Position numbers and translations under genes: made by a program. The notes below the pieces were generated by a model that saw nothing but the letters and a program-made list of their open reading frames with translations, did not search any database and was not told where the DNA came from. DNA of 42,688 bases. Origin: Sphingobacteriales bacterium. GTDB taxonomy: Bacteria; Bacteroidota; Bacteroidia; Chitinophagales; Chitinophagaceae. Below are positions 468 through 27,309 of this stretch, piece by piece. The stretch spans positions 1 to 42,688 of the forward strand of contig JAHEZE010000017.1 of NCBI GenBank assembly GCA_023251235.1, in the 5' to 3' direction. The first letter of the stretch is position 1; every line of letters begins with the position of its first letter.

Positions 468-3400
468 ATGATGAGGCCTTCAATCGAAAAAATATTACCT
501 GGTGGATTGGAAGATACTTTAGAACGAATCACCGATTCCTTTGCTGCGTTGGATGAAAATTGGAATTATACGTACATGAACAAGGCGGCAGGAATTACTT
601 TTAATAGGAATCCTGAAACCATCATCGGAAAAAATTTCTGGGCAGAATTTCCTGAGGCTATCGGACAACCCGTTGAGAAGGCTCTTCGCAAAGCCATGGA
701 AGAACATGTATATGTTTACAGGCAAGAGTATTTTGAACCCTATGGCCGCTGGTATGAGAATCATTTTTATCCTTCTGAAAATGGAATATCCATATTATCC
801 CGGGATATTACAGAAAAGAAAAAAGCAGAAATAGAATTAGAAGAAAGCCGGGCAAAATATCGTGCCTTTTTTGAAAACAGCCTCGATGGAATCCTGCTGA
901 CTACCTTAGACGGGAAAATTTTAGCCGCTAACCCTGCTGCCTGTTCTATTTTTAGAATGACTGAAGAAGAAATCTGCCAGGAAGGAAGAGCAGGCCTTGT
1001 TGATATAACGGATCCTCAACTACCAATTTTTATTGAAGAACGCAGAAAAAATGGAAAAATGAATGGGGAGATTAGCATGATACGTAAGGATGGTACAAAA
1101 TTTCCAGCTGAAATTTCTTCCGCTGTTTTTAAAGACATTAATGGGGAAGAAAGAACCACAATGATCATCCGTGATGTTAGCGAACGCAAAAAAGCAGAAG
1201 AATTGCTTAACCAAAACCGCATATTTATTGAAAGCATTATCAATGCATCTCCCGATATTATATACATCTATGATATTGAAGAAAAGAAAAACGTTTATGT
1301 AAATGAAGGGATACAACGAAACCTCGGCTATACCGATGCGGAAATAAAGGAAATGGGTAACAGGGTAATACCCCTGTTGATGCATCCCGAAGATTTTGAT
1401 GATTATCTTAACAACACTATCCCCCGATATAATACAGCCAAAGACAAAGAAATCATCAGCCACGAATTCCGTATGAAAGATAAAAACGGAAACTGGCATT
1501 GGCTTTATACAAAAGAATCCATTTTCTTACGCAAGCCGGATGGCACTCCTAAGCAAATTTTTGGAATCACCAACGATATTACCGAGCGCAAAAAAGTAGA
1601 AGACGAAGTAAAAAGAAATGAAAAACGATTCCAGGCAATGGTGGAGAATAACGACAGTGTTATTACATTATTTGATGAAAATTTTCAACCAATTTACCGG
1701 ACTCCGTCTGCAGAACGCATTGGCGGGTGGACAGACGAGGACAGAGGAAAGAAAACAATACAGGAGCTTATTCACCCGGACGATGTGGAATATCTGAAAA
1801 GTGTACAAAACGAAGTATTAAATAAGCCAGGTAAACTGATACCGTTTTTATTTCGTTTCAGGCATAAAGACGGAACTTATCTTTACCCGGAAGGAGTCGT
1901 AATAAATTTACTTCATGATAGTGATGTAAAAGCCATCGTTGCCAATTTCCGCGATGTTACTGAGCACAAAAAAGCAGAAGAAGAATTACAAAAAAGTGAA
2001 CAACGCTTTCAGGCTATGGTGGAAAATAACGACAGTGTTATTTCATTATTGGATGAAAACTTTCAACCAATTTACCAGTCACCTTCGGCTATTCGTGTTA
2101 GCGGGTGGACAGAGGAGGAAAGAAGGCAAACAACACTTTTGGAGCTTACACACCCGGACGATTTGGAATATGTGAAAAAGACAATGAAAGAAATGTTAGT
2201 AAATCCAGGCAAAACGATTTCCTATTCATTTCGTGTCAGACGTAAAAACGGAAATTATCTATACGCGGAAGGAGTGGCAACAAATTTACTTCATGACGAT
2301 ACTGTAAAGGCCATCGTTGCCAATTTTCGTGATATTACCGAACACAAAAAAGCAGAAGAAGAAATTAAAGAAAAGGCAATCCAGTTACAAACATTAAGTG
2401 ACAATCTGCCTGATACCATGATGTACCAGGTGATTCGTGAAAAAGATGGAAAGATGAAATTTATCTATGTAAGCAAAGCTGTGGAGTTGCTAACCGGTAA
2501 AACTCCAGAAGAAGTGATAAAGAATCCTGAAATTCTTTATAACCTGATTCATGAAGAAGATTACAAAAAGATTTTAGATGCAGAAAGAATTTCTTTCCAA
2601 ACTATGTCTCCCTTCAATATGGAAGTACGCAGCCATTCAGTAACGGGTAAATTAAGATGGTTGCACATCCGTTCAGTACCCCGAAGATTGGCAGATGGAA
2701 ATGTAATCTGGGATGGCATTCATACGGATATAACTGAACGCAAAAAAGCCGAAAAAGCACTAATCGAAAGTGAAAACCACTTACGCACCATTTTTGATAC
2801 TGAACCGGAATGTATAAAACTACTGGGGCCAAACGGAGAATTGCTTGATATGAACCCTTCCGGGCTGGCCATGATAGAAGCGGATAACCTGGAAATGGTA
2901 AAAGGGAAATCTGTGCTGGGTAATGTATCGCCTCATCATCGTGATGCTTTTGCAAACCTTACAAAGAATGTTTTTAATGGTGAATCCGGCGAGCTTGAGT
3001 TTGAAATTGAAGGATTGAAAGGAACCCGTCGCTGGCTGGAAACACATGCTGTCCCTTTAAAAAATGCTGAGGGAAAAATTATTTCCCTTCTTGGCGTTAC
3101 TCGTGATGTTACCGAACGGAAAAAAGCAGAAGAAGCGCTGCACGAAAGTGAAGAAAAATACCGACAGATAGTAGAAACTTCACAGGAAGGTATTTTCCGG
3201 ACGGATGAAAATTATTGTATCAATTTTGCCAATAAGAAATTTTGTGAAATATTAGAATACTCCCTTGAAGAACTGATTGGCCATGATCCTCTTAGTTATT
3301 TGGACAGTAAAGATATAGAGAAAGCAATGGCTGTAAGAAAAGAACGAAGAAAAGGAAGCGATTTTGGAGAATTAGAATATAACGTCAAAACAAAAACCGG

Positions 3401-4907
3401 CAAATCTATTTTGCTTAGCTTTTCGGCATCACCTATTTTGGATAAGGAAGGAAAATTTACTGGTGGTACGGGTGTGGTAACTGATATTACTGACCGAAAA
3501 AAAGCAGAAGAGCAAATTGTAAAAGAAAAAGAACTTTCCGATTCCATTATCAACAGCCTGCCGGGAATATTTTATTTGTTTGATGCCGGTAAGAATCTTT
3601 TGCGTTGGAATAAAAATTTTGAATTGGTTTCGGGTTATACAGCAGAAGAAATAAGGAGAGTAAAACCTATTGACTTTTTTGAAGGAGATGGAAGAAATTT
3701 AGTGCAGGAAAATTTTGATGAAGTTTTTCGGATGGGTGAAGCTGCGTTTGAGGCAAATTTTGTTAGCAAAACGGGAGAAAAGATTCCATATTATTTTACC
3801 GGGCTGCTTGTTAATTATGAAGGCCGGCCATGTTTGATAGGAACCGGCATTGATATGAGCGAACGGAAAAAAGCAGATGAAGAAATACGAAAAAGTGAAC
3901 TTCGCTACCGTTCTCTTATTGAGCAGGCATCGGATGCCATCATGATCACCGATCAGGCCGGCAATTTCCTTGATGTAAATACCAGCTTCTGTACGTTGTT
4001 CAGCTACACTAAAGAAGAATTGATAGGGGTAAATATCAGAAAGCTGATTGATCCCGAACAGTTAAAAAGAAAACCCATGCGTTTTGAAGAATTGTTGATA
4101 GGCAACCAGGTTTTCAGTGAAAGAAACATGTTACATAAAAACGGAACTATTATCCAGGTGGAAGCCAATGTAAAAATGTTGCCAGATGGAAGAATCCTGG
4201 CTATTGCGAGGGATATAACTGAACGGAAAAAAGCCGAAGAAGAAATAAAGCAAACCTCCGAACAATTACGCCAGCTAACCGCTCACCTGCAAATCATCCG
4301 GGAAGAAGAGCGTAAAAGAATTGGCCGTGAAATTCATGATGAACTGGGCCAGCAGCTGACCGCTATTAAAATGGATGTAGCCTGGATTGATAAAAAAACT
4401 TCGAAAGAAGACATCATAAAAACCAAATTAAAGAATATTATCACCCTGCTCGATGGAAGCAATTTGTCTATCCGGAAAATTTTAAACGAACTCCGCCTTG
4501 CCGTACTGGACGATCATGGTTTAATAGATGCGCTGGAATGGCTGGGCAGACAATTCACCAGCCAAACCCGTATCCCTCTTTCATTCCACAGTTCCGAATC
4601 TGATTTGAAGTTAGAAGAGACTGTTGCCACCTGTATCTTCAGAGTGTTCCAGGAGGCGCTAACCAATATTACAAAGTACGCCAGGGCTGGAAAAGTAGTA
4701 AGCTCATTAAATTGTACAAATGATAAGATAACGCTGGAAATCGAGGATAACGGCAAAGGATTTGACACTGCAATGTTAAAAAATAAAACAAGTTTTGGTA
4801 TCTTAGGTATGAAAGAAAGGGTAACTTCTCTGAACGGGGATTTCAAATTAATTTCATCGCCCGGATCAGGGACAAAAATAATTATCAGTTTGCCATTAAA
4901 ACCTTAA
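468..4907 (+). CDS. Giant soluble sensor histidine kinase, ten PAS domains, HisKA_3 type
   Basis: A 1479-residue sensor kinase without transmembrane segments or signal peptide, so probably cytoplasmic. Ten PAS/PAC units follow one another at roughly residues 15-120, 125-245, 250-380, 385-506, 511-632, 637-764, 768-890, 894-1016, 1020-1139 and 1145-1260. Each ends in a version of DITERKKAEE, which forms the linker helix. The transmitter is of the NarX/DesK type: H-box REIHDELGQQ with the predicted phosphorylated His1290, N-box around Asn1400 (FQEALTNITKYA), G1 box DNGKGFD at Asp1427, and a final GILGMKER / PGSGTKI segment. PAS 4 and 5 are a recent tandem duplication. The LuxR-type regulator begins 24 bases downstream and is the obvious partner. 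The signal is unknown; PAS residues give no cofactor assignment by eye. The start at 468 is one of two adjacent ATGs (468 or 471). Confidence 0.95.
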   Translation: MMRPSIEKILPGGLEDTLERITDSFAALDENWNYTYMNKAAGITFNRNPETIIGKNFWAEFPEAIGQPVEKALRKAMEEHVYVYRQEYFEPYGRWYENHFYPSENGISILSRDITEKKKAEIELEESRAKYRAFFENSLDGILLTTLDGKILAANPAACSIFRMTEEEICQEGRAGLVDITDPQLPIFIEERRKNGKMNGEISMIRKDGTKFPAEISSAVFKDINGEERTTMIIRDVSERKKAEELLNQNRIFIESIINASPDIIYIYDIEEKKNVYVNEGIQRNLGYTDAEIKEMGNRVIPLLMHPEDFDDYLNNTIPRYNTAKDKEIISHEFRMKDKNGNWHWLYTKESIFLRKPDGTPKQIFGITNDITERKKVEDEVKRNEKRFQAMVENNDSVITLFDENFQPIYRTPSAERIGGWTDEDRGKKTIQELIHPDDVEYLKSVQNEVLNKPGKLIPFLFRFRHKDGTYLYPEGVVINLLHDSDVKAIVANFRDVTEHKKAEEELQKSEQRFQAMVENNDSVISLLDENFQPIYQSPSAIRVSGWTEEERRQTTLLELTHPDDLEYVKKTMKEMLVNPGKTISYSFRVRRKNGNYLYAEGVATNLLHDDTVKAIVANFRDITEHKKAEEEIKEKAIQLQTLSDNLPDTMMYQVIREKDGKMKFIYVSKAVELLTGKTPEEVIKNPEILYNLIHEEDYKKILDAERISFQTMSPFNMEVRSHSVTGKLRWLHIRSVPRRLADGNVIWDGIHTDITERKKAEKALIESENHLRTIFDTEPECIKLLGPNGELLDMNPSGLAMIEADNLEMVKGKSVLGNVSPHHRDAFANLTKNVFNGESGELEFEIEGLKGTRRWLETHAVPLKNAEGKIISLLGVTRDVTERKKAEEALHESEEKYRQIVETSQEGIFRTDENYCINFANKKFCEILEYSLEELIGHDPLSYLDSKDIEKAMAVRKERRKGSDFGELEYNVKTKTGKSILLSFSASPILDKEGKFTGGTGVVTDITDRKKAEEQIVKEKELSDSIINSLPGIFYLFDAGKNLLRWNKNFELVSGYTAEEIRRVKPIDFFEGDGRNLVQENFDEVFRMGEAAFEANFVSKTGEKIPYYFTGLLVNYEGRPCLIGTGIDMSERKKADEEIRKSELRYRSLIEQASDAIMITDQAGNFLDVNTSFCTLFSYTKEELIGVNIRKLIDPEQLKRKPMRFEELLIGNQVFSERNMLHKNGTIIQVEANVKMLPDGRILAIARDITERKKAEEEIKQTSEQLRQLTAHLQIIREEERKRIGREIHDELGQQLTAIKMDVAWIDKKTSKEDIIKTKLKNIITLLDGSNLSIRKILNELRLAVLDDHGLIDALEWLGRQFTSQTRIPLSFHSSESDLKLEETVATCIFRVFQEALTNITKYARAGKVVSSLNCTNDKITLEIEDNGKGFDTAMLKNKTSFGILGMKERVTSLNGDFKLISSPGSGTKIIISLPLKP
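1620..2357 (+). repeat. Tandem PAS-domain duplication inside the first kinase
   Basis: Two consecutive copies of a PAS-coding unit lie 378 bases (126 codons) apart, the first from about 1620 and the second from about 1998. They share long stretches at the DNA level, for example the segment coding for QAMVENNDSVI and DENFQPIY, and both end in the unusual variant linker TEHKKAEEE rather than TERKKAEEE. No other PAS in the window is this close to a neighbour, so this is an internal tandem duplication. Confidence 0.9.
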
Positions 4908-4931
4908 AAGCAAATTAATCCGGAGCTATAT

Positions 4932-5567
4932 ATGAAGCGAATTATTTTAGCCGACGATCATAGCTTTATCCGTCTTGGATTGATACAGATTCTGAAAGAT
5001 GAATTTCCTTCTGCGGAAATAAAAGAAGTAGAGGATGGTGAAACCCTTGTTAAAGAAGTAACATTACATGATTGGGACCTGGTAATATCCGATCTTGATA
5101 TGCCCGGCCGCAGCGGACTGGAATCGCTGGAGCAAATTAAACTGATTAAACCTGATTTGCCGGTACTGATACTTAGCATTTACACAGAAGATTTATATGC
5201 GGTTAGGGTATTAAAAGCCGGTGCATCGGGCTACATGAATAAAAACGCCGCACCCTATGAACTTATCAAGGCGATACATCGTATCTCTTTGGGAAGAAAG
5301 TATATCACACCTGAAATTGCGGAAAAAATACTGCATCAGCAAAATCATAAAAAGCTTCATGAATTGCTTACTAACAGGGAATTTGAAATTTTTAAGCTGC
5401 TGGCTCTGGGAAAAACCATCACACAGATTGCTGAATCACTTTCTCTGGCTGCCACAACTGTGAGTACCCATCGCAGTAATATCATGCGAAAACTAAATCT
5501 CTCCACCAATTCTGAACTTACCCGTTACGCTTTAGCTCATCATATCATTTCAGATATAGGCTTCTAA
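4932..5567 (+). CDS. LuxR/NarL-family response regulator
   Basis: A 211-residue response regulator: receiver domain at residues 1-120 and a LuxR-type helix-turn-helix at about 145-207. The acidic pair is Asp8-Asp9, the phosphoacceptor is Asp54 in VISDLDMPG, and the conserved Lys is Lys104 (GYMNK). The output domain shows the family signature LTNREFEIFKLLALGKTITQ and TVSTHRSNIMRKL. The gene starts 24 bases after the ten-PAS HisKA_3 kinase, so it is the expected phosphotransfer partner and the DNA-binding output of this module. It is a clear paralogue of the regulator at 11330-11962. Targets are unknown. NarL-type regulators usually bind inverted repeats as dimers; a perfect palindrome lies just downstream at 5602-5618. 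Confidence 0.95.
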   Translation: MKRIILADDHSFIRLGLIQILKDEFPSAEIKEVEDGETLVKEVTLHDWDLVISDLDMPGRSGLESLEQIKLIKPDLPVLILSIYTEDLYAVRVLKAGASGYMNKNAAPYELIKAIHRISLGRKYITPEIAEKILHQQNHKKLHELLTNREFEIFKLLALGKTITQIAESLSLAATTVSTHRSNIMRKLNLSTNSELTRYALAHHIISDIGF

Positions 5568-5601
5568 GTATTGTCATACCAGCATCATCAATTGCTTTCT
5601 T

Positions 5602-5618
5602 TAGTAGAATTTCTACTA
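5602..5618. promoter_or_regulatory. 17-bp near-perfect palindrome, possible regulator binding site
   Basis: TAGTAGAA and TTCTACTA flank a single T in the intergenic region between the LuxR-type regulator and the receiver-only gene at 5695. There is no loop and no following T tract, so it is not a terminator; an operator for a dimeric regulator fits better. The regulator assignment is inference from location only. Confidence 0.4.
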
Positions 5619-5694
5619 TCTCATTCACCTTTCAATTCTATTTTCCATGATTACTAATTAATTGTTATTTGCATATCTGTAAAAACCATTAATT

Positions 5695-6057
5695 ATGATA
5701 CTGATATTTGACAACTCAGAACAGATTACAGAAAGACTGATTGAGCTTATCAGGGAAGAAAAGAAAGATTCCAGGCTGGATAATGCAACTACTTATCAAC
5801 AGGCGGTAAAGATTTTACAATTGTCCGACCCCAGGGTAATATTGCTCGATATAAAATTTTATGGAAACAAAACCATTGAACTGTTGAAAAAAATCAAGCT
5901 CTCAAATAAAAAAACCGCGGTTATCATTTTATTCAACCATGCGGATGAACAAAGCATGAAACAATGTAAAGATCATGGCGCTGATTTCTTTATTGACAAA
6001 TACTATGACTTTAATAAAATACCCGGAATAATTAATTCAATTGAGGCAAACGTATAA
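5695..6057 (+). CDS. Receiver-only (CheY-like) protein, degenerate
   Basis: A 120-residue single receiver domain without an output domain. The likely phosphoacceptor is Asp52 in VILLDIKF. Two family features are weakened: the acidic pair is Asp6-Asn7 instead of Asp-Asp/Glu-Asp, and the MPG-type loop after the phosphoacceptor is replaced by FYGNKT. A Lys is present near residue 102 (DKYYDF). Metal binding and phosphorylation may therefore be altered. The gene ends 10 bases before the start of the CHASE3/PAS/GAF kinase, so the two are surely co-transcribed. It resembles the receiver at 12103-12489, which also precedes a HisKA_3 kinase but keeps all canonical residues. It could be a phosphate sink, an intermediate, or a phosphorylation-independent partner of the kinase. 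Confidence 0.85.
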   Translation: MILIFDNSEQITERLIELIREEKKDSRLDNATTYQQAVKILQLSDPRVILLDIKFYGNKTIELLKKIKLSNKKTAVIILFNHADEQSMKQCKDHGADFFIDKYYDFNKIPGIINSIEANV

Positions 6058-6067
6058 TTTGAACAAT

Positions 6068-9000
6068 ATGAGTAAGAAAATGGAGCTGATGGTGAAATGG
6101 TTTAGCCGAAAAAAAGTGATGCTGGTAGTATTGTTTTTTTCCGTGGCGTTGATGGGAGCCGCCATTTTTCAGCTATCAGTTAAAAACAGCTGGCTGAAAA
6201 AGGAATTTACAAAACAGGAAGAGTACCTGCAGCAGAAAGAAGCTTTCGAAAAGCTGAACTTGTATATTAAAATGGCTGAATCCCAAACCCGGGGGTATGT
6301 CCTTTCAGGTGATAAGAAGTTTATAGCAAATTTTGATGCTAACATTGATTCCATAAACAATATTGAACGTCAAATTCAAAATGCAAATGATTCAGTTGAA
6401 GAAGTGAAAAGTACTGTGAAGTTATTGCAGCTGGATACTTTCATTCATCAGAAGATTGCTTTTATGAAACGGGGGAATGCCCTTTGTGCAGTTAATCAGA
6501 ACTCAGCAAAATTATTAATTGCTACCGGCGAAGGAATATGGTTGGCTGATTCCATTACAGCTATCAGCGAGAGGGTTATCAATAATTATCAGGAAAATCT
6601 CCGGGAATCCAGGACCAGTTTCTGGCAGATAAAATCATCCAATAGCAATTTTGCTTATTCTGTTATTGCCTTATCCCTGCTGATGATTTTTATTTCCTTT
6701 TATTTTTTAATGAAACAGATTGCGATCATTAAAAGAATGAGTGAGGAACTTGGGCTGCAGAAAGAGCAATACAGAACTGCGCTGAGCAGTATGGACGAAG
6801 GGCTGATAACCACCGGCAGGGATGGCAAAATTATTTATATGAACCCTGCTGCTGAACGCATTACCGGATGGAATAATCATGAAGCTATAAACCAGCCGCT
6901 GAAAAATGTATATAATGTGGTAATTGAGGAAACTGGGCAATCTATCGAAAATATTGTGGATCGTATTCTCATGGATGGTTTACCTGTTGGATTGGAGAAC
7001 AATACAATTCTTAAAACGAAGTATTCCGGGGAGATCATCATCAGCAACAGTGGCTCACCTCTGTTTGACCTAAGCGGAAAAATTGCCGGGGTAGTACTTG
7101 TTTTCAATGATATTACACAAAAGAAAATAATTGAAAATAAATTAAAAGAAAGCGAAGAAAAATACCGCAACCTGATTGAGCAGGCGGCGGATGGAATTTT
7201 TATATTTGATCAGCAGGGTAATTTTATAGAGGCCAATACCAGAGGTTGTATGATGATGGGCTATACAAAAGAAGAAGTATTGAAATTAAATTTGATGGAT
7301 ATTACTCCCGAAAAATTTGCCAACAGAAGACCGGTCAATTTATCCCGGATAAACAGCGGTGATACTTTGTTTGTGGAAAGACAGTTCAAACTGAAAAATG
7401 GCAACCTGGTTTTTGCCGAAGCCAGCGCAAAATTAATTGCAGGAGGGAATATACAGACAATTGTGCGGGACATTACCGATCGTAAGAAAACGGAACTATT
7501 AATGGAAGGGGAAAAAGAAGTAATGGAAAAAATTGCTACCAATAAGCCATTATCCGATATACTCGAAACTATAGCAGTCAATATTGAAAAATATTCTTCG
7601 GGAGGACTTTGTTCTATTCTCCTGCTTGATCCGGATGGAGTTCATTTACGACACGGGGCGGCTCCACATTTGCCCGAGGCTTACAATCTTGCTATTGATG
7701 GCGTAGCCATAGGTGAAAATGTAGGATCATGCGGAACCGCAGCATACAAAAAAATACCGGTCACAGTTTCGGACATTGCCACTGACCCTTTATGGAAAGA
7801 TTTCAGAGATCTTGCTTTAAGTTACGGGTTGAAGGCCTGTTGGTCTACACCTATTATATCAAATGATGATAATGTGCTGGGAACATTTGCTGTTTATTAT
7901 CCTACACCAAGGCTACCAAAAGCAGACGATTTTAATTTGATTGAAAGGGCCGCCAGTCAGGTAAGAATTGCGATTGAAAAAGACCTTGCTATTACGGAAT
8001 TAAGTAAAAGCGAAGAAAAATACCGGAACCTGATTGAACAGGCATCCGATGGTGTAATCGTTTTTTCTTTGGATGGTACTATATATGAATTTAACCAAGC
8101 CGTATACACTCAAACGGGATATACAAAAGAAGAATTTAAAAAGCTGAGACTCCTGGATTTACTTTTTGAAAAAGGGCTTATTATTAATCATGCCAATGTT
8201 GAAAAAATCAAATCAGGTCAATCGGTTCTAATTTACAGAACAATTAAACGCAAAGATGGAACTTCCTTAGAAGTAGAAATAAACATCCGTTTATTACCCG
8301 ATGGGCGTTGCCTGGCCTTTGTAAGAGATATTACAGAACGTAAAAAGGCGGAAAAAGAAATCAGGGAATCCAATGAAAGATTAAAGTTGATTGCTGCTAC
8401 AACGAATGATGCAATCTGGGAACGGAATATTGAGACTAATGAAATATGGGGCAATGAAACGCATCAGCATTTATATGGATTAACTCTGGCCGACCCTGTA
8501 CCTACCGAAGAATTGTGGATTGATGGATTACACCCGGAAGACAGGAATGCGACAGTAGCAAATTTTTATGATACACTTGCATCAGATAAAAATGTGTGGA
8601 TAAAAGAATATCGATTTCAAACTAAAGAAGGCAGCTATAAAAATATTTATGGCCGCACTTATATTGTCCGGGATAAAAACAGGCAACCGGTTCGTATTAT
8701 GGGAAGCATGATGGATATCACAGAGCGTAAGAAAACAGAATATCAAATTAAAGAAAGGGTAAAGGAATTAAAAGGTTTATACAGCACATCCGAGATAGTG
8801 AACAAACCGGGAAGTTCTATTGAAACCATCTTGCAGGAATGTGTAAATATTATCCCGCCTGCCTATCAGTATCCTGAAATAACCTGTGCCCGTATCATAT
8901 TCTATAACGGGAAATTTGTATCGGAAAACTTTAAGGAATCTGTTTGGAAACAGGAAGCTGAAATTATCCATCATGAAAAACCTGTAGGTAAGTTGGAAGT

Positions 9001-11320: not shown

Positions 11321-11329
11321 AAAATTATT

Positions 11330-11962
11330 ATGAGTTTACATTTTATAATAGCCGATGATCATGCAATTGTGCGAAGAGGGATAAAGCAGCTTTTGCTCGA
11401 AGAATATCCCTTTGCAATCATTGAAGAGGTGGGAGATGCGGAAGAGTTGATTCAAAAAACGATTCTGAAAAAATGGGATCTGGCAATTTCCGACATTCAC
11501 ATGCCCGGGCGCAGCGGAATGGATGCACTTCTGCAAATCAAGCAGGTAGTCCCCGACTTACCCGTACTTATTATGAGCATGTATTCTGAAGAGCATTATG
11601 CCTTGCGGGCTTTTAAGGCAGGAGCTGCCGGTTATCTTATTAAGGAAACCGTACACTCTGATCTTATCAAGGCAGTACAGACGGTTTTACTTGGGAAAAA
11701 ATTTATTACTCCCTCCATTGCAGAAAAACTGGCTGATGCCATTAATGATGAAAGTAAAAAACAGCCACATGAACTTCTTTCCAACAGGGAGTTTGAAGTG
11801 TTTATATTCCTTTCTATGGGTAAATCACCATCCTCCATTGCTGAACAGCTCTCCCTAAATGTTACCACCATCAGTACCTACCGTTCCCGTATACTGGAAA
11901 AAATGAATATGCAGACCAATGCACAACTTACCAGGTATGCTCTTGAAAACGAACTCATTTGA
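11330..11962 (+). CDS. LuxR/NarL-family response regulator
   Basis: A 210-residue response regulator, nine bases downstream of the CHASE3/PAS/GAF kinase and its likely phosphotransfer partner. The receiver has Asp9-Asp10, the phosphoacceptor Asp55 in AISDIHMPGRSG, and Lys105 in GYLIKE. The C-terminal half is a LuxR-type helix-turn-helix (LSNREFEVFIFLSMGKSPSS, then TTISTYRSRILEKM). It aligns along its full length with the regulator at 4932-5567, including the shared WDLxISDxxMPGRSG and the tail LTRYAL, so the kinase-regulator pair has been duplicated as a unit. DNA targets are unknown. The intergenic region just downstream contains two inverted repeats that are candidate sites. Confidence 0.95.
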   Translation: MSLHFIIADDHAIVRRGIKQLLLEEYPFAIIEEVGDAEELIQKTILKKWDLAISDIHMPGRSGMDALLQIKQVVPDLPVLIMSMYSEEHYALRAFKAGAAGYLIKETVHSDLIKAVQTVLLGKKFITPSIAEKLADAINDESKKQPHELLSNREFEVFIFLSMGKSPSSIAEQLSLNVTTISTYRSRILEKMNMQTNAQLTRYALENELI

Positions 11963-11993
11963 TGAATCGCTCCAACATTGCTGTATTTAAAAA

Positions 11994-12013
11994 CTGTAGT
12001 CGATATTCTACAG
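11994..12013. promoter_or_regulatory. Inverted repeat CTGTAG-N8-CTACAG, possible operator
   Basis: CTGTAG at 11994-11999 and its exact complement CTACAG at 12008-12013 are separated by eight bases. No T tract follows, which argues against a terminator. It sits in the same place as the palindrome at 5602-5618, namely between a LuxR-type regulator and a receiver-only gene. Function is inferred from position only. Confidence 0.35.
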
Positions 12014-12070
12014 CTCCTTTGAAACAGTGGACAATGTAATAATAAGGATCACTATTTGAAGGAGAGGAGG

Positions 12071-12092
12071 TGTAGAATAACTTGCTGTTCTA
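12071..12092. promoter_or_regulatory. Imperfect inverted repeat TAGAA-N10-TTCTA, possible operator
   Basis: TAGAA (12073-12077) and TTCTA (12088-12092) lie just upstream of the receiver gene at 12103. The half-site matches that in the palindrome at 5602-5618. It is short and the region is AT-rich, so chance is a real alternative. Confidence 0.25.
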
Positions 12093-12102
12093 AAATACAG
12101 TT

Positions 12103-12489
12103 ATGAAAAATCTCCTACCCAATGAAAAACCTGCCTTATTGATCGTTGATGATAACAAAAAATATGTCGTCCGATTGATTAGTTTACTGGAAGAAGCCGG
12201 ACATGCCAGCCCCATAATTACTGCAGAAAATTATGATGAAGCTATAAGTTTAATCGCAAAGAAAAAACCAGGCATAGTATTGCTCGATATCAATATGCCG
12301 GGTAAAACAGGAATGGAAGTTTTGCGTTATATAAAACGGGAGGATTGGGAATGCAAGGTGGTAATGGTTACCAATCATTCCAATGAAAGTTACCACAAGC
12401 TTTGCCTTGATGCCGGAGCAAATTATTTCCTGGATAAAACCAGGGACTTCGGATTGATTCCGTCTCTCGTTGAGAAAATGAGTAAATAG
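12103..12489 (+). CDS. Receiver-only (CheY-like) response regulator
   Basis: A 128-residue stand-alone receiver with all canonical residues: acidic pair Asp16-Asp17, phosphoacceptor Asp62 in VLLDINMPGKTG, Thr90 and Lys112. There is no output domain. It is followed after 85 bases by a HisKA_3 kinase, mirroring the receiver-kinase order at 5695-11320. Unlike that module, no LuxR-type regulator follows this kinase. Likely roles are a phosphorelay intermediate, a phosphate sink or a protein-binding output. A 12-residue N-terminal extension precedes the first strand. Confidence 0.9.
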   Translation: MKNLLPNEKPALLIVDDNKKYVVRLISLLEEAGHASPIITAENYDEAISLIAKKKPGIVLLDINMPGKTGMEVLRYIKREDWECKVVMVTNHSNESYHKLCLDAGANYFLDKTRDFGLIPSLVEKMSK

Positions 12490-12574
12490 AACAAACTGAT
12501 AAATTATTTTTTTATTCATTCCCTATGAAAAACCAATTACTGCCATATTCTATCTCCACCGGAAAAACACTATT

Positions 12575-14374
12575 ATGCGTACTCATTGGAAAGAACTGAA
12601 ACCAATCATTTCTTCAGTTGGCTGGCATAATAAACAGTACCTCTCCGTCCTTGATGAACAGGGTAATATTTTACTGGCCAATGCAAGAATGCAAAAAGAA
12701 CTGAATTTGAAAAACCCCAGACAGGTGAAAAGTAATTTTTTTAACCTGTTGCATCCTGTACATATTGAAAAATTAAGAAATGCTTTTCGGTATTCTGTAA
12801 AGAATAATATTCCGTACTCAATAGGATTAGAGATAAAAAATGGTCATAGCCATTCTATGGTATGGCGGGTAAATTATTTACAGCAGGAGGTAAAAGGGAT
12901 CAACACATTTATTTGCCTGGGTAGTTTGAAAACCGAAAGACCGGCGTTGGAAAAGGAATCTGTTGCAGACAATAAATTATTGGAAATTATTTTTCAGTCT
13001 TTTATGAAAAATTCACCTCATCTGGCCTGGGTAACAGATGAAGAAGCCAATTTAGTATTTGCCAACGATTCTTTTTATCAATATTTCAGAATTGATGAGA
13101 AAACATTAAACAAAAAAATTGCTGACCTGGTGCCGCTAAACATTGTTGATCTTTTATATGAAAAACATCAGAAAGTTTTGCAAACAGGCCTGCCTATTGA
13201 AATAATTGAAAAAGGATGGACTCAGGGTGGGGTGTCTGCAATTTTTAAAATAAAAATATTTTTCATAGAAGGAAAGAATGGACGGAAAATGGCAGGGGGT
13301 GTTGCTTTCAATTATTCAGAAATATATGAATCTGAAAAAAAACTTTCAAAAGCCAATGAACGATTGAAGCATATAACCAGCATCACTTCTGATGCAATCT
13401 GGGAATGGGATATGCTGAGCGATCAGATTTTTCGCAATGAGAAACTGACAACAATGATCGGGTTCCAGGTGGAGGATACAAAAGAATTGTCGTGGTGGCT
13501 GAGCCGTGTGCATCCTGAAGACAGGGATCAGCTGAATAAAAAGTTGAAAGAAGTTACTGACAAGAGTCTTCATTCATGGAAAAGTGAATACCGGTTCTTA
13601 TGTGCCGATGGAGAATATAAGAACATGCTTGATCGTGGATTTGTGATCTATGAAAATGGAATGCCGGTGAAAATGATTGGTTCATTAAGTGATATTACCG
13701 GTGAAAAACTGTTGACCAACCTGCTGGTGGAAGAAAAACTACAGCAATATAAAAAGATTTCTGAAGCGGTTTTGCAGGTGCAGGAACTGGAACGTACCCG
13801 CATTGGGCACGAACTACATGATAATGTTAACCAGATACTCAGCACATCCAAGATGTTTGTGGACATAATAAAAACCACTACTTCGGAGGATGCCCATTTA
13901 AAAGGAAAAATAACAGAATACCTTCTCATGGCCATTGAAGAAATAAGAAAATTATCTAAAGAAATGGTTACACCTCAGTTAAAGGAAAATGGATTAATAA
14001 CCAGCATCGGTACACTGGTAGATGATCTAAAGGCAACGAATGTTGTAAATATTTTATTTTGCCACCATGATGATATAGAAATGCTGAGCATCGGAAAAAA
14101 AGTTGCACTCTTTCGCATTGTACAGGAACAGATAAAAAATACTTTGAAATACAGCAAAGCGAAAAATCTGACCATCACTTTACAGTTAAAAAATGAAAAT
14201 GCACAACTGATAATTGAAGATGATGGTGTTGGTTTTGATACTAAACAAAACCGCAGGGGTATTGGCCTTTCCAATATTTATGAGCGTACCAGGTTTTATA
14301 ATGGAACCGTTCAGATAAAAACTGCACCAGGACAAGGTTGTAAAATGATCATTAGAATTCCTATGATTAATTAA
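12575..14374 (+). CDS. PAS-domain sensor histidine kinase, HisKA_3 type
   Basis: A 599-residue kinase with no transmembrane helix. Three PAS-like units lie at about 10-115, 140-255 and 262-380; the third resembles the duplicated PAS of the large membrane kinase (SDAIWEWDM, VHPEDRDQL). The transmitter is NarX/DesK-like: H-box GHELHDNVNQILS with the predicted phosphorylated His415, followed by an HATPase with an N-box (IVQEQIKNTLKYSKA), DDGVGFD and GIGLSNIYER. The H-box is more divergent than in the two giant kinases (HDNVNQ instead of HDELGQ). The receiver-only protein directly upstream is the nearest candidate partner. No DNA-binding regulator is adjacent, so it may feed the regulators of the neighbouring modules. 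The region upstream of 12575 also has an ATG at 12524, in another context, without support. Confidence 0.92.
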   Translation: MRTHWKELKPIISSVGWHNKQYLSVLDEQGNILLANARMQKELNLKNPRQVKSNFFNLLHPVHIEKLRNAFRYSVKNNIPYSIGLEIKNGHSHSMVWRVNYLQQEVKGINTFICLGSLKTERPALEKESVADNKLLEIIFQSFMKNSPHLAWVTDEEANLVFANDSFYQYFRIDEKTLNKKIADLVPLNIVDLLYEKHQKVLQTGLPIEIIEKGWTQGGVSAIFKIKIFFIEGKNGRKMAGGVAFNYSEIYESEKKLSKANERLKHITSITSDAIWEWDMLSDQIFRNEKLTTMIGFQVEDTKELSWWLSRVHPEDRDQLNKKLKEVTDKSLHSWKSEYRFLCADGEYKNMLDRGFVIYENGMPVKMIGSLSDITGEKLLTNLLVEEKLQQYKKISEAVLQVQELERTRIGHELHDNVNQILSTSKMFVDIIKTTTSEDAHLKGKITEYLLMAIEEIRKLSKEMVTPQLKENGLITSIGTLVDDLKATNVVNILFCHHDDIEMLSIGKKVALFRIVQEQIKNTLKYSKAKNLTITLQLKNENAQLIIEDDGVGFDTKQNRRGIGLSNIYERTRFYNGTVQIKTAPGQGCKMIIRIPMIN

Positions 14375-14430
14375 AAAAAACAAACGAATACTTTTTAAGA
14401 GATACAAATTATCAGTATTATTCCGACTAA

Positions 14431-14463
14431 GTGTAAACATTTATTTTTCTTATTCCTTTACAC
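14431..14463. other. Inverted repeat GTGTAAA-N19-TTTACAC
   Basis: Seven-base complementary arms (14431-14437 and 14457-14463) separated by 19 AT-rich bases lie in the 281-base gap between two kinase genes. No T tract follows the second arm, so it is a poor intrinsic terminator. It could be an operator or be accidental. The rest of this gap shows nothing recognisable. Confidence 0.25.
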
Positions 14464-14655
14464 CTATTTATAAAAATAAGGATCGGATATCGAACTTAAA
14501 TACAGATTTAATCCGTTTTAAATATCTGCAAAAATGCTGGGAAACAGCAAGTTGATTCCAGAAACACATATGAAACTTGAAAGGGTTTCTTATTGAATCT
14601 GTAATTGAATGTGCAGAATGAAATAATTATTTCATTACTCAGTTGCCAATATCTT

Positions 14656-15834
14656 ATGAAAATGAAACCAGCTTTTATTAACAGTTTTCAGATTGGGGAT
14701 AACGAAATACGGGTTAATAAGCTTATCGACAGTCTGCCGGTAGGCATCATACTGCACGGGCCCGGAACTGAAATATTATTCAGTAATCAAACAGCGCTGG
14801 ATATTCTTGGTCTTACTGAAGATGAGATTTATCAAAGAACTTCTTTTCATCCTGAATGGAGTTTTATTCATGAAGATGGTACCGCATTCGAAGGCATTAC
14901 TCATCCGGTTTCAAGAGCCATTGCTACAAAAAAACCCGTTTACAATTTTGTTATGGGTGTATACCGGTCCGATACAAAGGACAAGGTTTGGTTATTGGTA
15001 AATGCGGAGCCTCAATTGGATGAAGAAGGAGATGTTTTAGAGGTAATATGCAGTTTCAGCGATATAACACGTTATAAAAATGCAGAAGAAGAATTACAAT
15101 GGTTGTATCAAAAACTTGAAGTGAGGGCATTAGAGCTTTCTACTTCCAATGCAGAACTGGAGCGTTTTGCTTATGTAGCCACTCATGATTTGCAGGAACC
15201 GTTGCGTATTGTTTGCAGCTTTCTGCAACTGCTTGAAAAGAAATACGAAAATCAACTTGATGAGCAGGCCTATGAATATATCAATTTTGCTATCGAAGGT
15301 TCTAACCGGATGAAAAAACTTCTTAAGGATTTACTGGAATTTACAAAAGTCAGTAGTAATAAGGAAGAGCCGGTATTAACCGATTTGAATTTAGTTGTAA
15401 AAGAAACATGCCTATTATTAGAAAATGAAATAAAAGCAGCAGATGCAGAAATAATCATCCCGGATTTACCTGTTATAAATGTTCACACACAGATGATGGG
15501 TATGCTTTTTGAAAACCTGATTGGCAATGCCCTTAAATACAAGAGCTGTAAAAAGCCTGTAATACAGATTGATTATAAGGAAGAAGAAAATAAATATATG
15601 TTCAGCGTAAGCGATAATGGAATAGGTATCGATCCAAAATATTCTGAAAGAATTTTTGTTCTTTTTAAGAGGTTGCATAATGATAATTATGCTTATGAAG
15701 GAACAGGACTCGGCCTGGCAATCTGCAAAAAAATTGTGGAGCGTCATGGCGGGAATATATGGGTGGAATCAGAAGAAGGGGAGGGAAGTACATTTCATTT
15801 CACCATTGCCCGGCATCAAAATCAAGCCCTATGA
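14656..15834 (+). CDS. PAS sensor histidine kinase, phytochrome-like HisKA
   Basis: A 392-residue soluble kinase. One PAS domain (about 15-140) ends in SDITRYKNAEEEL. A HisKA domain follows with the H-box VATHDLQEPLR (His177), the version seen in phytochrome-type kinases. The HATPase domain shows the N-box NLIGNALKYKS, DNGIGI and GTGLGLAICKKIVERHGG. Two ATGs (14656 and 14662) fit the start; an upstream in-frame TTG at 14605 would add residues unlike a PAS domain. The TGA stop overlaps the ATG of the next kinase (ATGA), so the two are translationally coupled. Two Rcp1-like receivers at the end of this run of genes are the likely partners. Confidence 0.9.
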   Translation: MKMKPAFINSFQIGDNEIRVNKLIDSLPVGIILHGPGTEILFSNQTALDILGLTEDEIYQRTSFHPEWSFIHEDGTAFEGITHPVSRAIATKKPVYNFVMGVYRSDTKDKVWLLVNAEPQLDEEGDVLEVICSFSDITRYKNAEEELQWLYQKLEVRALELSTSNAELERFAYVATHDLQEPLRIVCSFLQLLEKKYENQLDEQAYEYINFAIEGSNRMKKLLKDLLEFTKVSSNKEEPVLTDLNLVVKETCLLLENEIKAADAEIIIPDLPVINVHTQMMGMLFENLIGNALKYKSCKKPVIQIDYKEEENKYMFSVSDNGIGIDPKYSERIFVLFKRLHNDNYAYEGTGLGLAICKKIVERHGGNIWVESEEGEGSTFHFTIARHQNQAL

Positions 15835-18800
15835 AAAAATATAAAAACCATATAAATATTTTTCTGGGTATTTCATTGTTGCTTGTTTCAGGCGGATTCA
15901 CATTATTATTTGTCAATTTCAATAAGCAGGCCCAATATCAAAAAGAAAATATTAGTCTTCAGAATAACTTAATATGGGTAGATTCTCTGCATTCCAATTT
16001 GCTGCAAATAGAGTCAGAAAAACAACGCTATCAGTTTACCAGTAATTTAGATTTTCTGAAAAATATGTATGTGCTTAAAGTGCAATCTCAGAAAAACATA
16101 AATGATCTTAAAAACCATTCCTTAATTTTTAAATACTCAGTATTAATAAACGAGATTGATTCACTTACAAAAATAATGATCATAAACCTTGACAATAATA
16201 TCTCTGTTTTTAAAACAAAAGGTTTCGGGGAAGCAGCAAGGATGATGAGTGGACATGAAATCGTTGCAGTTAAGGATCTTCTTCATTTGAAAATTGGAGA
16301 GCTTAAGAAAAATCTTCTCATTAAAATGGGCGCAAACACTCAGCATGTAAACATGCGGAACAGAAGTAATGTTATAGACTGTATTATAATGTTAAGTCTT
16401 TTTATCATTGGAATGTTTGTTGCAGCATTTACTTTTAAAAAGGCACAGAAAAAAATTATAAGAAATCACATAAGGTTTCAGGAAGCACAGCGAATTGCTA
16501 AAATCGGCAGTTGGGAGTGGGACATTGCCTCTAATAAAGTTACATGGAGTAAAGAGATGTATAATCTTTTTGGAGAGGATCCAAAGACATATAAAATTTC
16601 CTTTGAAGGATATTTCACCCATTTGTCAAAAACTGACGGGGAGATAACTCTTAAATTGCTTAAAGAAACTCTTGATGGCAAGATTAATTTATCAATTGAA
16701 CATGAAATAATAAGAAAAGATGGGTCAACGATTATAGTTTTTGAGCAGGGTACAGTTATGTATGATGAAGAGGGAAAACCAACCGGCATGTTTGGAACTA
16801 CACAGGATATAACAGAACGCCGGAAAGCAGATGAAAAAATAAAAGCTGAAAGACTGCTTCTCCGTACTGTTATTGATAATCTCCCGGATAGTATCTATGT
16901 AAAAAATACTAACGCCCAAAAAATCATTGCAAATAAAACCGATATGTTTTTAATGGGAGTTGAAAACGAGACTGATTTTTTGGGTAAAACGGATCTGGAT
17001 TTATTTCCAACAGATGAAGGAGCCAATGCATATAGAGATGATATGACAGTAATTCAAACCGGTCAATCAATAATTAATAGAGAAGAGGAGTTTACAGATA
17101 TAAATGGAGTACGGCACAATTTACTGACTTCAAAAGTTCCTTTCTATAATGCAGAGAGTGCAATAAGCGGCCTGGTGGGAGTTGGCCGGGATATTACCGA
17201 ACGAAAAAAAGCAGAAGAAGATTTGATATCAGCCCAAAAGAAACTCCAGTCAATTTTTGATAACACAGCAGATGGGATATACCAGAGTACTGTTGATGGA
17301 AAATTTATTACGGCCAATATGGCCGTGGCAAAATTATTTGGTTATGATACGCCTGATGAACTTATTTCTTCAGTAAATCATATTGGCGAGGAGCATTACG
17401 CTAATCCTGAAGACAGGAAAAAGATGTCGGAACTCTTATCACTTTACGGTCATATTGAAAATTATGAAGTACCCCTGTTGACCAAAAATAAAGATATTGT
17501 TTGGGTTAGCGAAAGCACCCGTATTTTAAGGGATGAACAGAGTGGCATCAATTATTTTGAAGGGACATTGAAGGATATTACCGAACGTAAAAGAGTAGAA
17601 GAAGAGTTAATAAAGGCACAAAAAAAATATAAAGCAATTTTCGACAATACTTCGGTTGGAATTTATCAAAGTTCCAGCAATGGCAATTTCATTATGGTCA
17701 ATCCTGCCATGGCTTTGATTTTTGGTTATGATTCTCCGGAAGATATGCTTCGGACAGTGACAGATATCAAAAGTCAGATTTATGTAGATCCGGATGAAAG
17801 AAGAAAAATGACTGAGTTGATTTCTTTATATGGTCATGTAGAAGATTTTGAATTACAGGTATTGAAAAAAGATAAAAGTCCTATTTGGGTAAGTGCCAAT
17901 ATTCGTATTGTTAAGGATGAAAAGGAAGGCATTAATTATTTTGAAGGAGTATTGGAAAATATTACGAGGAGAAAAATTGCAGAAGAACAATTATTAAGTA
18001 TGTCGGATCGCCTGCAACTGGCTGTCAATGCCACGCACATAGGAATTTGGGACTGGAACCTGGTTGACGATACTACCGTATGGGATGATGAAATGTATGA
18101 AATATATAATGTCAGCCCGAAAGACTTTCAAACGATTTTCAAAGCATGGCAATCCAGAGTGCATCCAGACGATATGCAAAGGGTGAATGAGGAAATACAA
18201 AAAGCAATAAAAGGTGAGAAAGATTATGATACTGAATTCCGGATTATTTGGAAAGACGGCACTATCCATTATGTAAAAGGAAATGCATTGGTTCAGCGGG
18301 ATGAACAAAGCAATGCAATCCGTATGATTGGCACCAATGCAGATATTACGGAGCGAAAATTAGCCGAAGAAAAAATTCTGGAATTAAACAAAAGTCTTGA
18401 TCAGTTTGCCAATATTACGGCGCATGATCTGCAGGAACCAATCCGGATGGTGAGTGGCTTTTTGGGATTGTTAGATAAAAAATATGCTACCATTTTAGAT
18501 GATCAGGGCAAAAGCTATATCTATCGTGCCAAAGATGGAGCAGACAGAATGAGTGTTCTTATCAAAGATCTTCTTGAGTTTTCCCGTTCAGGAAACACAT
18601 CTGCCAAAAAAGAGCCGGTGGATCTTAATGAAGTAATGGATCTGGTAAAAAGAGATTTAAGTATAGTAATGGAAGATACCGGCGCCAGTCTTTGTATTCC
18701 ACCTTCATTACCGATAGTAAACGGAACCCAGAGTGCATTGTACCGTTTATTGCTTAACCTGATAAGCAATGGAATTAAATTCAGGAAAAAAGATACTGCC

Positions 18801-19067
18801 CCAACAGTAAATCTTTCAGTTGTTGAGTCTAATGGAGATTGGGAATTCACATTGCAGGATAATGGTATTGGGGTTCCGGAAAAAGATCAGCCTAAATTGT
18901 TCAAGGCATTTCAACGCTTGCACAGGAAGGAAGATTATCCAGGAACTGGATTAGGACTTGTTACCTGTAAAAAGATTGTTGAAGTTCATGATGGTAAGAT
19001 ATGGATGACTTCTGAGTTTGGTAAAGGCACCGCTTTCCATTTTACTTTACCAAGAAATGCAAAATAA
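15831..19067 (+). CDS. Membrane sensor histidine kinase with five PAS domains, phytochrome-like HisKA
   Basis: A 1078-residue kinase whose ATG overlaps the stop codon of the previous gene by four bases. Transmembrane helices at about 8-28 and 182-204 enclose a periplasmic, helical region resembling CHASE3-type sensors. Five PAS units follow at about 217-333, 342-462, 467-592, 597-719 and 724-845. The third and fourth are sister copies (FDNT-GIYQS, LSLYGH-E, GINYFEG). The transmitter has H-box ITAHDLQEPIR (His865), N-box NLISNGIKFR, DNGIGV and GTGLGLVTCKKIVEVHDG. It overlaps the following kinase by 11 bases. The overlap on both sides indicates stoichiometric production of the three kinases. 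The ligand is unknown. Confidence 0.93.
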   Translation: MKKYKNHINIFLGISLLLVSGGFTLLFVNFNKQAQYQKENISLQNNLIWVDSLHSNLLQIESEKQRYQFTSNLDFLKNMYVLKVQSQKNINDLKNHSLIFKYSVLINEIDSLTKIMIINLDNNISVFKTKGFGEAARMMSGHEIVAVKDLLHLKIGELKKNLLIKMGANTQHVNMRNRSNVIDCIIMLSLFIIGMFVAAFTFKKAQKKIIRNHIRFQEAQRIAKIGSWEWDIASNKVTWSKEMYNLFGEDPKTYKISFEGYFTHLSKTDGEITLKLLKETLDGKINLSIEHEIIRKDGSTIIVFEQGTVMYDEEGKPTGMFGTTQDITERRKADEKIKAERLLLRTVIDNLPDSIYVKNTNAQKIIANKTDMFLMGVENETDFLGKTDLDLFPTDEGANAYRDDMTVIQTGQSIINREEEFTDINGVRHNLLTSKVPFYNAESAISGLVGVGRDITERKKAEEDLISAQKKLQSIFDNTADGIYQSTVDGKFITANMAVAKLFGYDTPDELISSVNHIGEEHYANPEDRKKMSELLSLYGHIENYEVPLLTKNKDIVWVSESTRILRDEQSGINYFEGTLKDITERKRVEEELIKAQKKYKAIFDNTSVGIYQSSSNGNFIMVNPAMALIFGYDSPEDMLRTVTDIKSQIYVDPDERRKMTELISLYGHVEDFELQVLKKDKSPIWVSANIRIVKDEKEGINYFEGVLENITRRKIAEEQLLSMSDRLQLAVNATHIGIWDWNLVDDTTVWDDEMYEIYNVSPKDFQTIFKAWQSRVHPDDMQRVNEEIQKAIKGEKDYDTEFRIIWKDGTIHYVKGNALVQRDEQSNAIRMIGTNADITERKLAEEKILELNKSLDQFANITAHDLQEPIRMVSGFLGLLDKKYATILDDQGKSYIYRAKDGADRMSVLIKDLLEFSRSGNTSAKKEPVDLNEVMDLVKRDLSIVMEDTGASLCIPPSLPIVNGTQSALYRLLLNLISNGIKFRKKDTAPTVNLSVVESNGDWEFTLQDNGIGVPEKDQPKLFKAFQRLHRKEDYPGTGLGLVTCKKIVEVHDGKIWMTSEFGKGTAFHFTLPRNAK
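17227..17988 (+). repeat. Duplicated PAS units in the five-PAS kinase
   Basis: Two adjacent PAS-coding units (about 17227-17610 and 17611-17988) have equivalent bases 384 apart (128 codons). Both encode IFDNT-GIYQS, a -FGYD-P-- segment, ER/DRKKM-EL-SLYGH and GINYFEG. DNA identity is visibly lower than for the pair at 1620-2357, so this duplication is older. Confidence 0.75.
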
Positions 19068-19857
19068 TATACAAAGTATGGGAGTAACAACACAACTGAA
19101 TACCGAAATTGAATTTCTGCAAACCGAATTGGAGAAAAAAAGCAAGGAAGAAGAAATTCTGAGAAACAGACTGGAAGAAATTAAAAAAGAAATGAATCAG
19201 TTTACCTATATCGTTTCGCATGATTTGCAGGCGCCCCTGCGCACCATTACTGGTTTTCTGGAATTGCTGAATAAAAGATATAGTGATAAGTTGGATGCTT
19301 CCGGTATGCAGTTTATTGATATGGCGGTGAAAGGAGCCACCAAAATGAAAAGCCTTGTTTTTGATTTACTGGAATATTCCCGTCTGAATAATCGTGTTGA
19401 AGGTTTTGATGTAGTGGACCTGAATGAAGTTTTGAACGAAACGAAAATAAAATATGAAACCATCATAGAAAAAACAGGAGCCGTCATAAAAGTTAATGAA
19501 TTACCCTTAGTTCTTGCTGATAGAACACAGATGGGGCATATGTTTCATCATTTGCTTGGCAATGCTCTTAAGTTCCGTGGCGAAAGGACGCCGGAAATAA
19601 ATATTACTTCAAGGAAAGAGAATAATTGCTGGATAATCGGCGTTCAGGATAATGGAATGGGAATTGAAGAATCTTTTTTTGAAAAAATATTCATTGTTTT
19701 CAGGCGGCTGAATAATGATGAAGAAAAATACCCTGGAACAGGAATAGGGTTAGCTATTTGTAAAAAAATTGCAGAATTGCACGATGGCAAAATCTGGCTG
19801 AAATCTGAAGTGAATAAAGGAACCGCTTTTTATTTTTCCCTGCCTGTAAAGAATTAA
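19057..19857 (+). CDS. Short soluble histidine kinase without a sensor domain
   Basis: A 266-residue protein with only an N-terminal coiled coil (about 10-45, rich in Glu/Lys/Leu) followed by HisKA and HATPase domains. The H-box is IVSHDLQAPLR (His55); the ATP-binding part has LLGNALKFRG, DNGMGI, a F-box-like IFIVFRRLN and GTGIGLAICKKIAELHDG. It has no PAS, GAF or membrane segment, so signal input must come from a partner, plausibly the upstream kinase that it overlaps by 11 bases. ATG 19057 was chosen for the overlap; ATG 19078 is an alternative that leaves a 10-base gap. It may act as a heterodimer partner or as a second phosphodonor for the receivers that follow. Confidence 0.88.
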   Translation: MQNNIQSMGVTTQLNTEIEFLQTELEKKSKEEEILRNRLEEIKKEMNQFTYIVSHDLQAPLRTITGFLELLNKRYSDKLDASGMQFIDMAVKGATKMKSLVFDLLEYSRLNNRVEGFDVVDLNEVLNETKIKYETIIEKTGAVIKVNELPLVLADRTQMGHMFHHLLGNALKFRGERTPEINITSRKENNCWIIGVQDNGMGIEESFFEKIFIVFRRLNNDEEKYPGTGIGLAICKKIAELHDGKIWLKSEVNKGTAFYFSLPVKN

Positions 19858-19893
19858 ATTGAAATTTTTTCATATAATATAAAATCTACTCTT

Positions 19894-20328
19894 ATGGATG
19901 AAGTAAACATTTTATTAGTGGAAGATAATGAAGGCGACATTATATTAACCACAGAAGCCTTTAAGGATATGCAACTCGAAAATAAAATTTCAGTTGTGAA
20001 AGATGGAGAATCTGCCCTTCAGTTTTTGAAAAAACAGGGGGAATATGCGGATAGCCCCACTCCGCAATTAGTACTTATGGATATTAACCTGCCTGGTATC
20101 AACGGTAAAGAATTACTTGATATCATTAAAAAAGACGATAACCTTAAAGAAATACCGGTTGTAATGCTTACCTGCTCTGACAGGGATGCGGATATTAGTG
20201 ATTGCTATGATAAACACGTCAATTGGTATATTACCAAGCCTATTGATTATGAAAAGTACACAAAAGTGATGCATGAAATTGAGGCTTTTTATGTATCATT
20301 CGTCCCATATCCAAAAGGTGGGAAATAA
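19894..20328 (+). CDS. Rcp1-like receiver-only response regulator
   Basis: A 144-residue receiver of the kind paired with phytochrome-like kinases (Rcp1 type), recognised by the start ILLVEDNEGDI and the longer alpha-4/beta-5 region. Key residues are Glu10-Asp11, phosphoacceptor Asp63 in LMDINLPGINGKELL, Thr93 and Lys115 (ITKPID). It has no output domain. It lies 36 bases after the sensor-less kinase and should receive phosphate from one or more of the three kinases upstream. Its sister gene at 20455 is clearly a duplicate. The C-terminal tail of about 20 residues is aromatic-rich and may contact a partner. Confidence 0.93.
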   Translation: MDEVNILLVEDNEGDIILTTEAFKDMQLENKISVVKDGESALQFLKKQGEYADSPTPQLVLMDINLPGINGKELLDIIKKDDNLKEIPVVMLTCSDRDADISDCYDKHVNWYITKPIDYEKYTKVMHEIEAFYVSFVPYPKGGK

Positions 20329-20454
20329 AAAGATTTATCAGATGGGTTTATTTTATTCAGAATTTCAAAATAATTGCCGTGGAAATAAAACCTGTCATTA
20401 TAAATTTTCAATTTGATAATTTTTTAATTAGTTATTTACTTAAAACAAAATCCT

Positions 20455-20889
20455 ATGTCTGAAATACAAATATTATTGGTAGAAGATAATGAAGGAGATA
20501 TACTGCTTACCATTGAGGCCTTTAAAGATTTAAAAGTAAAGACCAATATTGCCGTGGCAAAAGATGGAACGGAGGCTATAGAATTTTTAAAATGCCAGGG
20601 TAAATTTACCGACAACAAGTTGCCACATCTAATATTGCTTGATATCAACATGCCCAAAGTAAATGGAATCGAAGTGCTTGATTTTATAAAGAAAGATGAT
20701 CAATTAAAGAAGATCCCGGTAGTTATGCTCACTACTTCTTCTTCCGAATCTGATATTGCCGAGTGCTATGAAAAATCAGCCAATTGTTTTATTACAAAAC
20801 CGGTGGATTTTGGAAAATTTTTAAATGTAGTTCAGGCAATAGAATCATTTTGGTTTTCGGTTGCTCAATTGCCAAAATCCGTTTCCTGA
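20455..20889 (+). CDS. Rcp1-like receiver-only response regulator (duplicate)
   Basis: A 144-residue receiver, the same length as its upstream neighbour and aligned without gaps. Canonical residues are Glu10-Asp11, Asp63 in LLDINMPKVNGIEVL, Thr93 and Lys115 (ITKPVD). The MPG loop Gly is replaced by Lys (MPKVNG). The gene is separated from its twin by 126 AT-rich bases, so it could have its own promoter, although co-transcription is also possible. A terminator hairpin follows at 20922, closing the signalling island. Two near-equal receivers for three kinases suggests branching or competition for phosphate. Confidence 0.93.
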   Translation: MSEIQILLVEDNEGDILLTIEAFKDLKVKTNIAVAKDGTEAIEFLKCQGKFTDNKLPHLILLDINMPKVNGIEVLDFIKKDDQLKKIPVVMLTTSSSESDIAECYEKSANCFITKPVDFGKFLNVVQAIESFWFSVAQLPKSVS

Positions 20890-22465: not shown

Positions 22466-22548
22466 TATTTAAAATACAGATCAAAAACGAAAACCAGGTA
22501 AAAAAGGTTATCTGTAATTATGAAAAATCAAATCCTAAAATCCAATTT

Positions 22549-24324: not shown

Positions 24325-24344
24325 ATAGAAATAAAGTATTTAAT

Positions 24345-27255: not shown

Positions 27256-27280
27256 AATCTCATCAAATTTTAAAACACCA

Positions 27281-27300: not shown

Positions 27301-27309
27301 TAGAAGGCT

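Follow-up and report, generated by a model that had tools for sequence, protein, structure and literature searches.

Between positions 468 and 20889 of the window (the whole stretch of 42,688 nucleotides that was analysed), genes for two-component signalling follow each other in a row that we read, with somewhat more confidence than doubt, as a composite: three separately conserved two-component units that are semi-independent, contain a modulator each and have come together at a chromosomal site of variable content. According to open reading frames and Pfam, this island consists of six intact histidine kinases, two response regulators of the LuxR type and four lone receivers. They share the plus strand and stand in the order HK1-RR1-REC1-HK2-RR2-REC2-HK3-HK4-HK5-HK6-REC3-REC4 with no unrelated gene in between, which bears out the gene count and the uninterrupted run reported in the initial annotation. 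Unit A comprises HK1-RR1-REC1, unit B HK2-RR2-REC2-HK3 and unit C HK4-HK5-HK6-REC3-REC4. The genes and the landmarks of the locus are:

468-4907, plus strand: HK1 (unit A), soluble kinase with ten PAS domains, HisKA_3 and HATPase_c (Pfam, motifs)
4932-5567, plus strand: RR1 (unit A), regulator with receiver and LuxR (GerE) domains (Pfam)
5695-6057, plus strand: REC1 (unit A), lone pseudo-receiver that retains the phosphoacceptor D but has N in place of DD2 and F in place of the T/S switch (Pfam, alignments)
about 6068-11320, plus strand: HK2 (unit B), membrane kinase with CHASE3, eight PAS domains, GAF, HisKA_3 and HATPase_c (Pfam)
11330-11962, plus strand: RR2 (unit B), regulator with receiver and LuxR domains (Pfam)
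12103-12489, plus strand: REC2 (unit B), lone receiver; the five active-site residues are complete, and the switch T/S is followed by a conserved N
12575-14374, plus strand: HK3 (unit B), soluble kinase with up to three PAS domains and a HisKA_3 of the ELHDNVNQ type (Pfam)
14605-15834, plus strand: HK4 (unit C), PAS and HisKA kinase with a bacteriophytochrome-like catalytic core (Pfam, PDB)
about 15831-19067, plus strand: HK5 (unit C), N-terminal membrane region (weakly CHASE3-like), five PAS domains and HisKA (Pfam)
about 19057-19857, plus strand: HK6 (unit C), kinase core lacking PAS (Pfam)
19894-20328, plus strand: REC3 (unit C), Rcp1-like lone receiver (Pfam, PDB)
20455-20889, plus strand: REC4 (unit C), second Rcp1-like lone receiver, sharing 55% identity with REC3 (Pfam, PDB)
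21301-25766, plus strand: F1-F4, downstream of the island; a membrane-looking protein, an exported protein, an exported protein of 621 amino acids and a T9SS-tailed protein
25850-33823, minus strand: his operon enclosing a LysE-type gene, a locus landmark
34253 and 35092: exonuclease and glycosyltransferase beyond the his operon, the right-hand locus markers

All six kinases have intact H, N, G1 and G2 boxes. Pfam places HK1-HK3 in the HisKA_3 family and HK4-HK6 in the HisKA family, and the cores of the two families share little (19-28% identity). Combining a linker motif with Pfam, the kinases carry 10, 8, 3, 1, 5 and 0 PAS domains from HK1 to HK6, thus 27 in total, with the first PAS of HK3 being weak (E 0.024). 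Both the two kinase families and the figure of about 27 PAS domains had been put forward from the bare sequence and agree with these counts. The whole genome (3.23 Mb in 181 contigs) contains 35 HisKA or HisKA_3 matches and 44 receiver matches, so that six kinases within 20.4 kb correspond to a binomial P of about 9e-8, though genes of this kind cluster in general. A second signalling cluster of the same genome (L064, G000:C157:1-20000) shows five to six tandem kinases followed by receiver proteins.

The genes are packed head to tail. The widest intergenic gap in the island is 230 bases (between HK3 and HK4), REC1 and HK2 are 10 bases apart, and HK4/HK5 and HK5/HK6 overlap by 4 bases (ATGA) and 11 bases, respectively. 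HK2 has its first ATG at 6068; a start at the upstream TTG (6041) would make it overlap REC1. Such gaps permit long transcripts, and co-expression and cross-talk are therefore possible, a point against the composite reading. Promoter and terminator scans gave counts equal to the shuffle level, with zero matches for a strict Bacteroidetes-type promoter pattern, and the HK3-HK4 gap (14375-14604) folds only slightly better than its shuffles (z -1.8).

To see how the island compares with its relatives, 399 genomes of the same family were searched, and regions from about 75 of them, chosen mostly through REC2 or RR1 matches, were annotated together with named loci by means of the domains found in the window. 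Among the relatives examined, no other genome was seen with A, B and C together. The full gene order, for which the initial annotation had suggested looking in other Chitinophagaceae, is thus absent from them, and the idea of the whole island as a conserved gene order was rejected. Instead, each unit occurs elsewhere without the other two. Unit A stands on its own in G031, G051, G040 and others, with RR1 orthologues from other genera being 73-87% identical. In the case of unit B, HK2-RR2-REC2 is kept in about 50 loci, and HK3 accompanies the unit in 24 of 53 genomes. Pairs of the unit C type, i.e. a HisKA kinase and an Rcp1-like receiver, are widespread and also stand alone (L065-L068). RR1 and RR2 are 52% identical and the HK1 and HK2 cores 44%; as a HisKA_3 kinase often follows REC1 in unit A loci (L241, L242, L244, L248), the two units seem to be paralogous variants of a single kinase-regulator-receiver(-kinase) layout. 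Several relatives (L054, L055, L056, L266, L267, L276) encode, between RR2 and REC2, one more receiver-only protein, which is similar to the RR1/RR2 receiver.

Units A and B resemble systems of the NarL/FixJ type such as NarX-NarL, DesK-DesR and UhpB-UhpA, in that a kinase with HisKA_3 and HATPase_c and intact H, N and G boxes is encoded beside a regulator that joins a receiver with an intact active site to a GerE domain. RR1 and RR2 match NarL-subfamily models (e.g. UvrY, NarL) of NCBIfam, in each case below the curated cut-offs. In the reading favoured here, the multi-PAS kinase of each unit would phosphorylate the adjacent LuxR-type regulator, and the lone receiver of the same cluster would modulate this pair. 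What sets the units apart from the known systems is the great size of their multi-PAS kinases, together with a lone receiver that is conserved behind the regulator and an additional kinase in unit B. A literature search on two-component clusters in Chitinophagaceae returned nothing usable.

The lone receivers of units A and B differ in their active sites. In the relatives of REC2, the residues D, D, D, T/S and K are kept nearly without exception: D and K are invariant, T/S is found in 55 of 55, N follows it in 54 of 55, and a D precedes the K in all. REC2 thus combines a complete active site with the lack of an output domain, as expected for a phosphate sink or hub. It remains with HK2-RR2 when HK3 is missing, which makes HK2 the likelier partner, and REC2 would probably act as a competitor or phosphate sink for this kinase. 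As a complete lone receiver encoded among kinases, REC2 recalls the lone-receiver hubs and phosphate sinks MrrA and LovR of Caulobacter, of which MrrA receives phosphate from six kinases or more (PMC5964349). The REC2 gene, however, is grouped with LuxR regulators and not with PhyR, and the kinase family is a different one.

REC1 is recognised by Pfam as Response_reg (E 1.4e-14). However, DD2, the second metal-binding acid, is non-acidic in 14 of 14 members of its family (the window and 13 relatives), while in the relatives the phosphoacceptor D is kept in 12 of 13 and T/S in 5 of 13. A pseudo-receiver has been defined as a receiver domain by sequence without at least one of DD, D, T and K (Bourret et al. 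2025, PMC12632262), and by this definition REC1 is a conserved pseudo-receiver. REC1 differs from the published pseudo-receivers in being a stand-alone protein inside a conserved two-component unit. The loss of DD2 throughout the family makes a classical relay through REC1 unlikely, and the protein more likely acts by binding. The earlier proposal that the receiver-only proteins relay signals consequently loses ground for REC1, while the lone receivers themselves are real. NCBIfam gave no named family for any of the four, every match being below the curated cut-offs.

Regarding unit C, the active sites of REC3 and REC4 are complete. Their common profile (A5) has RcpA (1k68, 1.6e-47) and Rcp1 (1i3c, 7.9e-45) among its best PDB matches, far above CheY-type chains, and also matches RcpB and a response regulator fused to a bacteriophytochrome. 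The HK4 core is closest to 8f71 and to bacteriophytochromes. Both features recall Cph1-Rcp1 and bacteriophytochrome pairs. In contrast to these, unit C has three kinases for two receivers, and Pfam detected no bilin-binding PAS-GAF-PHY module in HK4-HK6, only PAS in HK4 and HK5 and none in HK6. The label ‘phytochrome-like’, given previously to these HisKA kinases, is hence valid for the catalytic core only. We propose that HK4-HK6 may phosphorylate REC3 and REC4, which would then act by protein contact.

The left end of the window cuts through the array. The contig begins 467 bases ahead of HK1, and its positions 1-120 match exactly the 120 bases at the right end of another contig of the same genome (C40), which identifies the two as neighbours. 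The end of C40 reads polX-L27-L21-GH3-dxr-rseP-class-K LuxR regulator, with upstream gene names taken from their sequences and from synteny with the relative G363 rather than from a family search, and is followed by a short HATPase-only frame on the opposite strand. In G363, the class-K regulator likewise stands directly before the kinases. A third LuxR regulator is thus present just beyond the edge, and the count of only two DNA-binding outputs in the initial annotation turns out to be an edge effect. The short frame (L379:8829-9293, minus strand of C40) lies between the class-K regulator and HK1 and encodes 154 amino acids with a weak HATPase_c match only (E 3.9e-4, below the curated cut-off).

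This regulator also offers a link to HK3. Among genomes with unit B, the class-K regulator is found in 22 of 24 with HK3 and in 12 of 29 without it (Fisher P 1.5e-4, kinship ignored); the two HK3 genomes without it are 79% and 83% complete. Elsewhere, HK3-like kinases directly precede a LuxR regulator of the type that served as the class-K query. The co-occurrence makes the class-K regulator our best guess for the natural partner of HK3, which would be a second input kinase.

At the locus level, unit B lies between dxr-rseP on one side and the his operon or the exonuclease on the other, and relatives carry at this site nothing, one regulator, B, or B and C. The interval from dxr-rseP to the exonuclease is empty in G004 and G005 (same genus by the grouping used) and holds a single, class-K-like LuxR regulator in G202. 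The his operon precedes the exonuclease in G001-G003, with G003 lacking unit B and having other genes upstream of the operon. A LuxR regulator and unit B without his occupy the interval in G120 and G177, and in G335 and three g126 genomes unit B adjoins the his operon, between rseP/class-K regulator and his operon/exonuclease. G363 is the only other genome seen with B and C at the locus; there the class-K regulator is followed by unit C, unit B and F1-F4, and identity to the window amounts to 85% for REC3 and 81% for REC4. Altogether this occupancy suggests that unit B is likely an old resident of the locus, and that units A and C were likely added here or lost elsewhere. The his operon of the window encloses a gene for a LysE-type exporter (27310-27942), as it does in G002 and G003, whereas the operons of G335 and G214 lack this gene.

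The F1-F4 genes mostly lack a Pfam family; their order is conserved. F1 occurs in 31 of the 399 family genomes, often beside kinases or LuxR regulators. The cassette lies downstream of unit B in G363 and G025 (L080/L368) and divergent to HK2 in G356. In many genomes it stands away from unit B, sometimes beside other kinases, and the idea that it always belongs to unit B was rejected. A link of F1-F4 to unit B as candidate output or partner genes is plausible from these arrangements, and regulation by the unit may be part of it.

The question is then whether the units work together. In one branched network, the six kinases would feed shared receivers, and the lone receivers would pass or divert phosphate between branches leading to the LuxR regulators. 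The dense co-directional packing, the precedent of MrrA (PMC5964349) and the presence of C and B at the same locus in G363 are consistent with such a network, and in 14 of 93 cases (13 genomes) an Rcp1-like receiver is encoded no more than 10 kb from an A/B regulator, against 0.5 expected at random, which argues for a gathering beyond chance. However, the control class, class K, also has an Rcp1-like receiver nearby in 5 of 80 cases against 0.4 expected, so that the gathering, although stronger for A/B than for the control, is partly general clustering and not unique to A/B; a specific association of unit C with A/B is weakened accordingly. Furthermore, each unit is found without the others in most genomes, the HisKA_3 and HisKA cores are dissimilar, and REC1 is a pseudo-receiver. 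We therefore consider a single branched network, as first suggested for this DNA, distinctly improbable. What does fit is local branching, because unit B conserves a second kinase and a lone receiver beside its kinase-LuxR pair. A wider version of this would be a five-gene circuit of class-K regulator, HK2, RR2, REC2 and HK3, with two kinases and two regulators coupled through the shared REC2 and F1-F4 as target, and unit A as a paralogous version whose coupling receiver turned into a phosphorylation-independent pseudo-receiver; we hold this to be unlikely.

At the other extreme, the rseP-to-exonuclease interval may simply be a tolerant insertion site, at which units functionally unrelated to each other and to F1-F4 accumulated passively. 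The content of the interval, which among relatives extends from no genes at all to over a dozen, points in this direction, as do the different order of C and B in the window and in G363 and the position of unit A on a different contig in the latter (L242). However, most of this content consists of signalling genes, accompanied by F1-F4 or his, and F1-F4 recurs beside unit B in differing arrangements, which leaves passive accumulation as a rather unlikely explanation. The composite of three semi-independent units is the reading that we favour.

Read as a composite, the apparent giant network resolves into testable modules. The conserved lone-receiver (REC2) and pseudo-receiver (REC1) families hold matching positions in paralogous units and constitute a natural comparison between phosphorylatable and non-phosphorylatable modulators, and the locus is a place where related bacteria gain and lose sensory modules.
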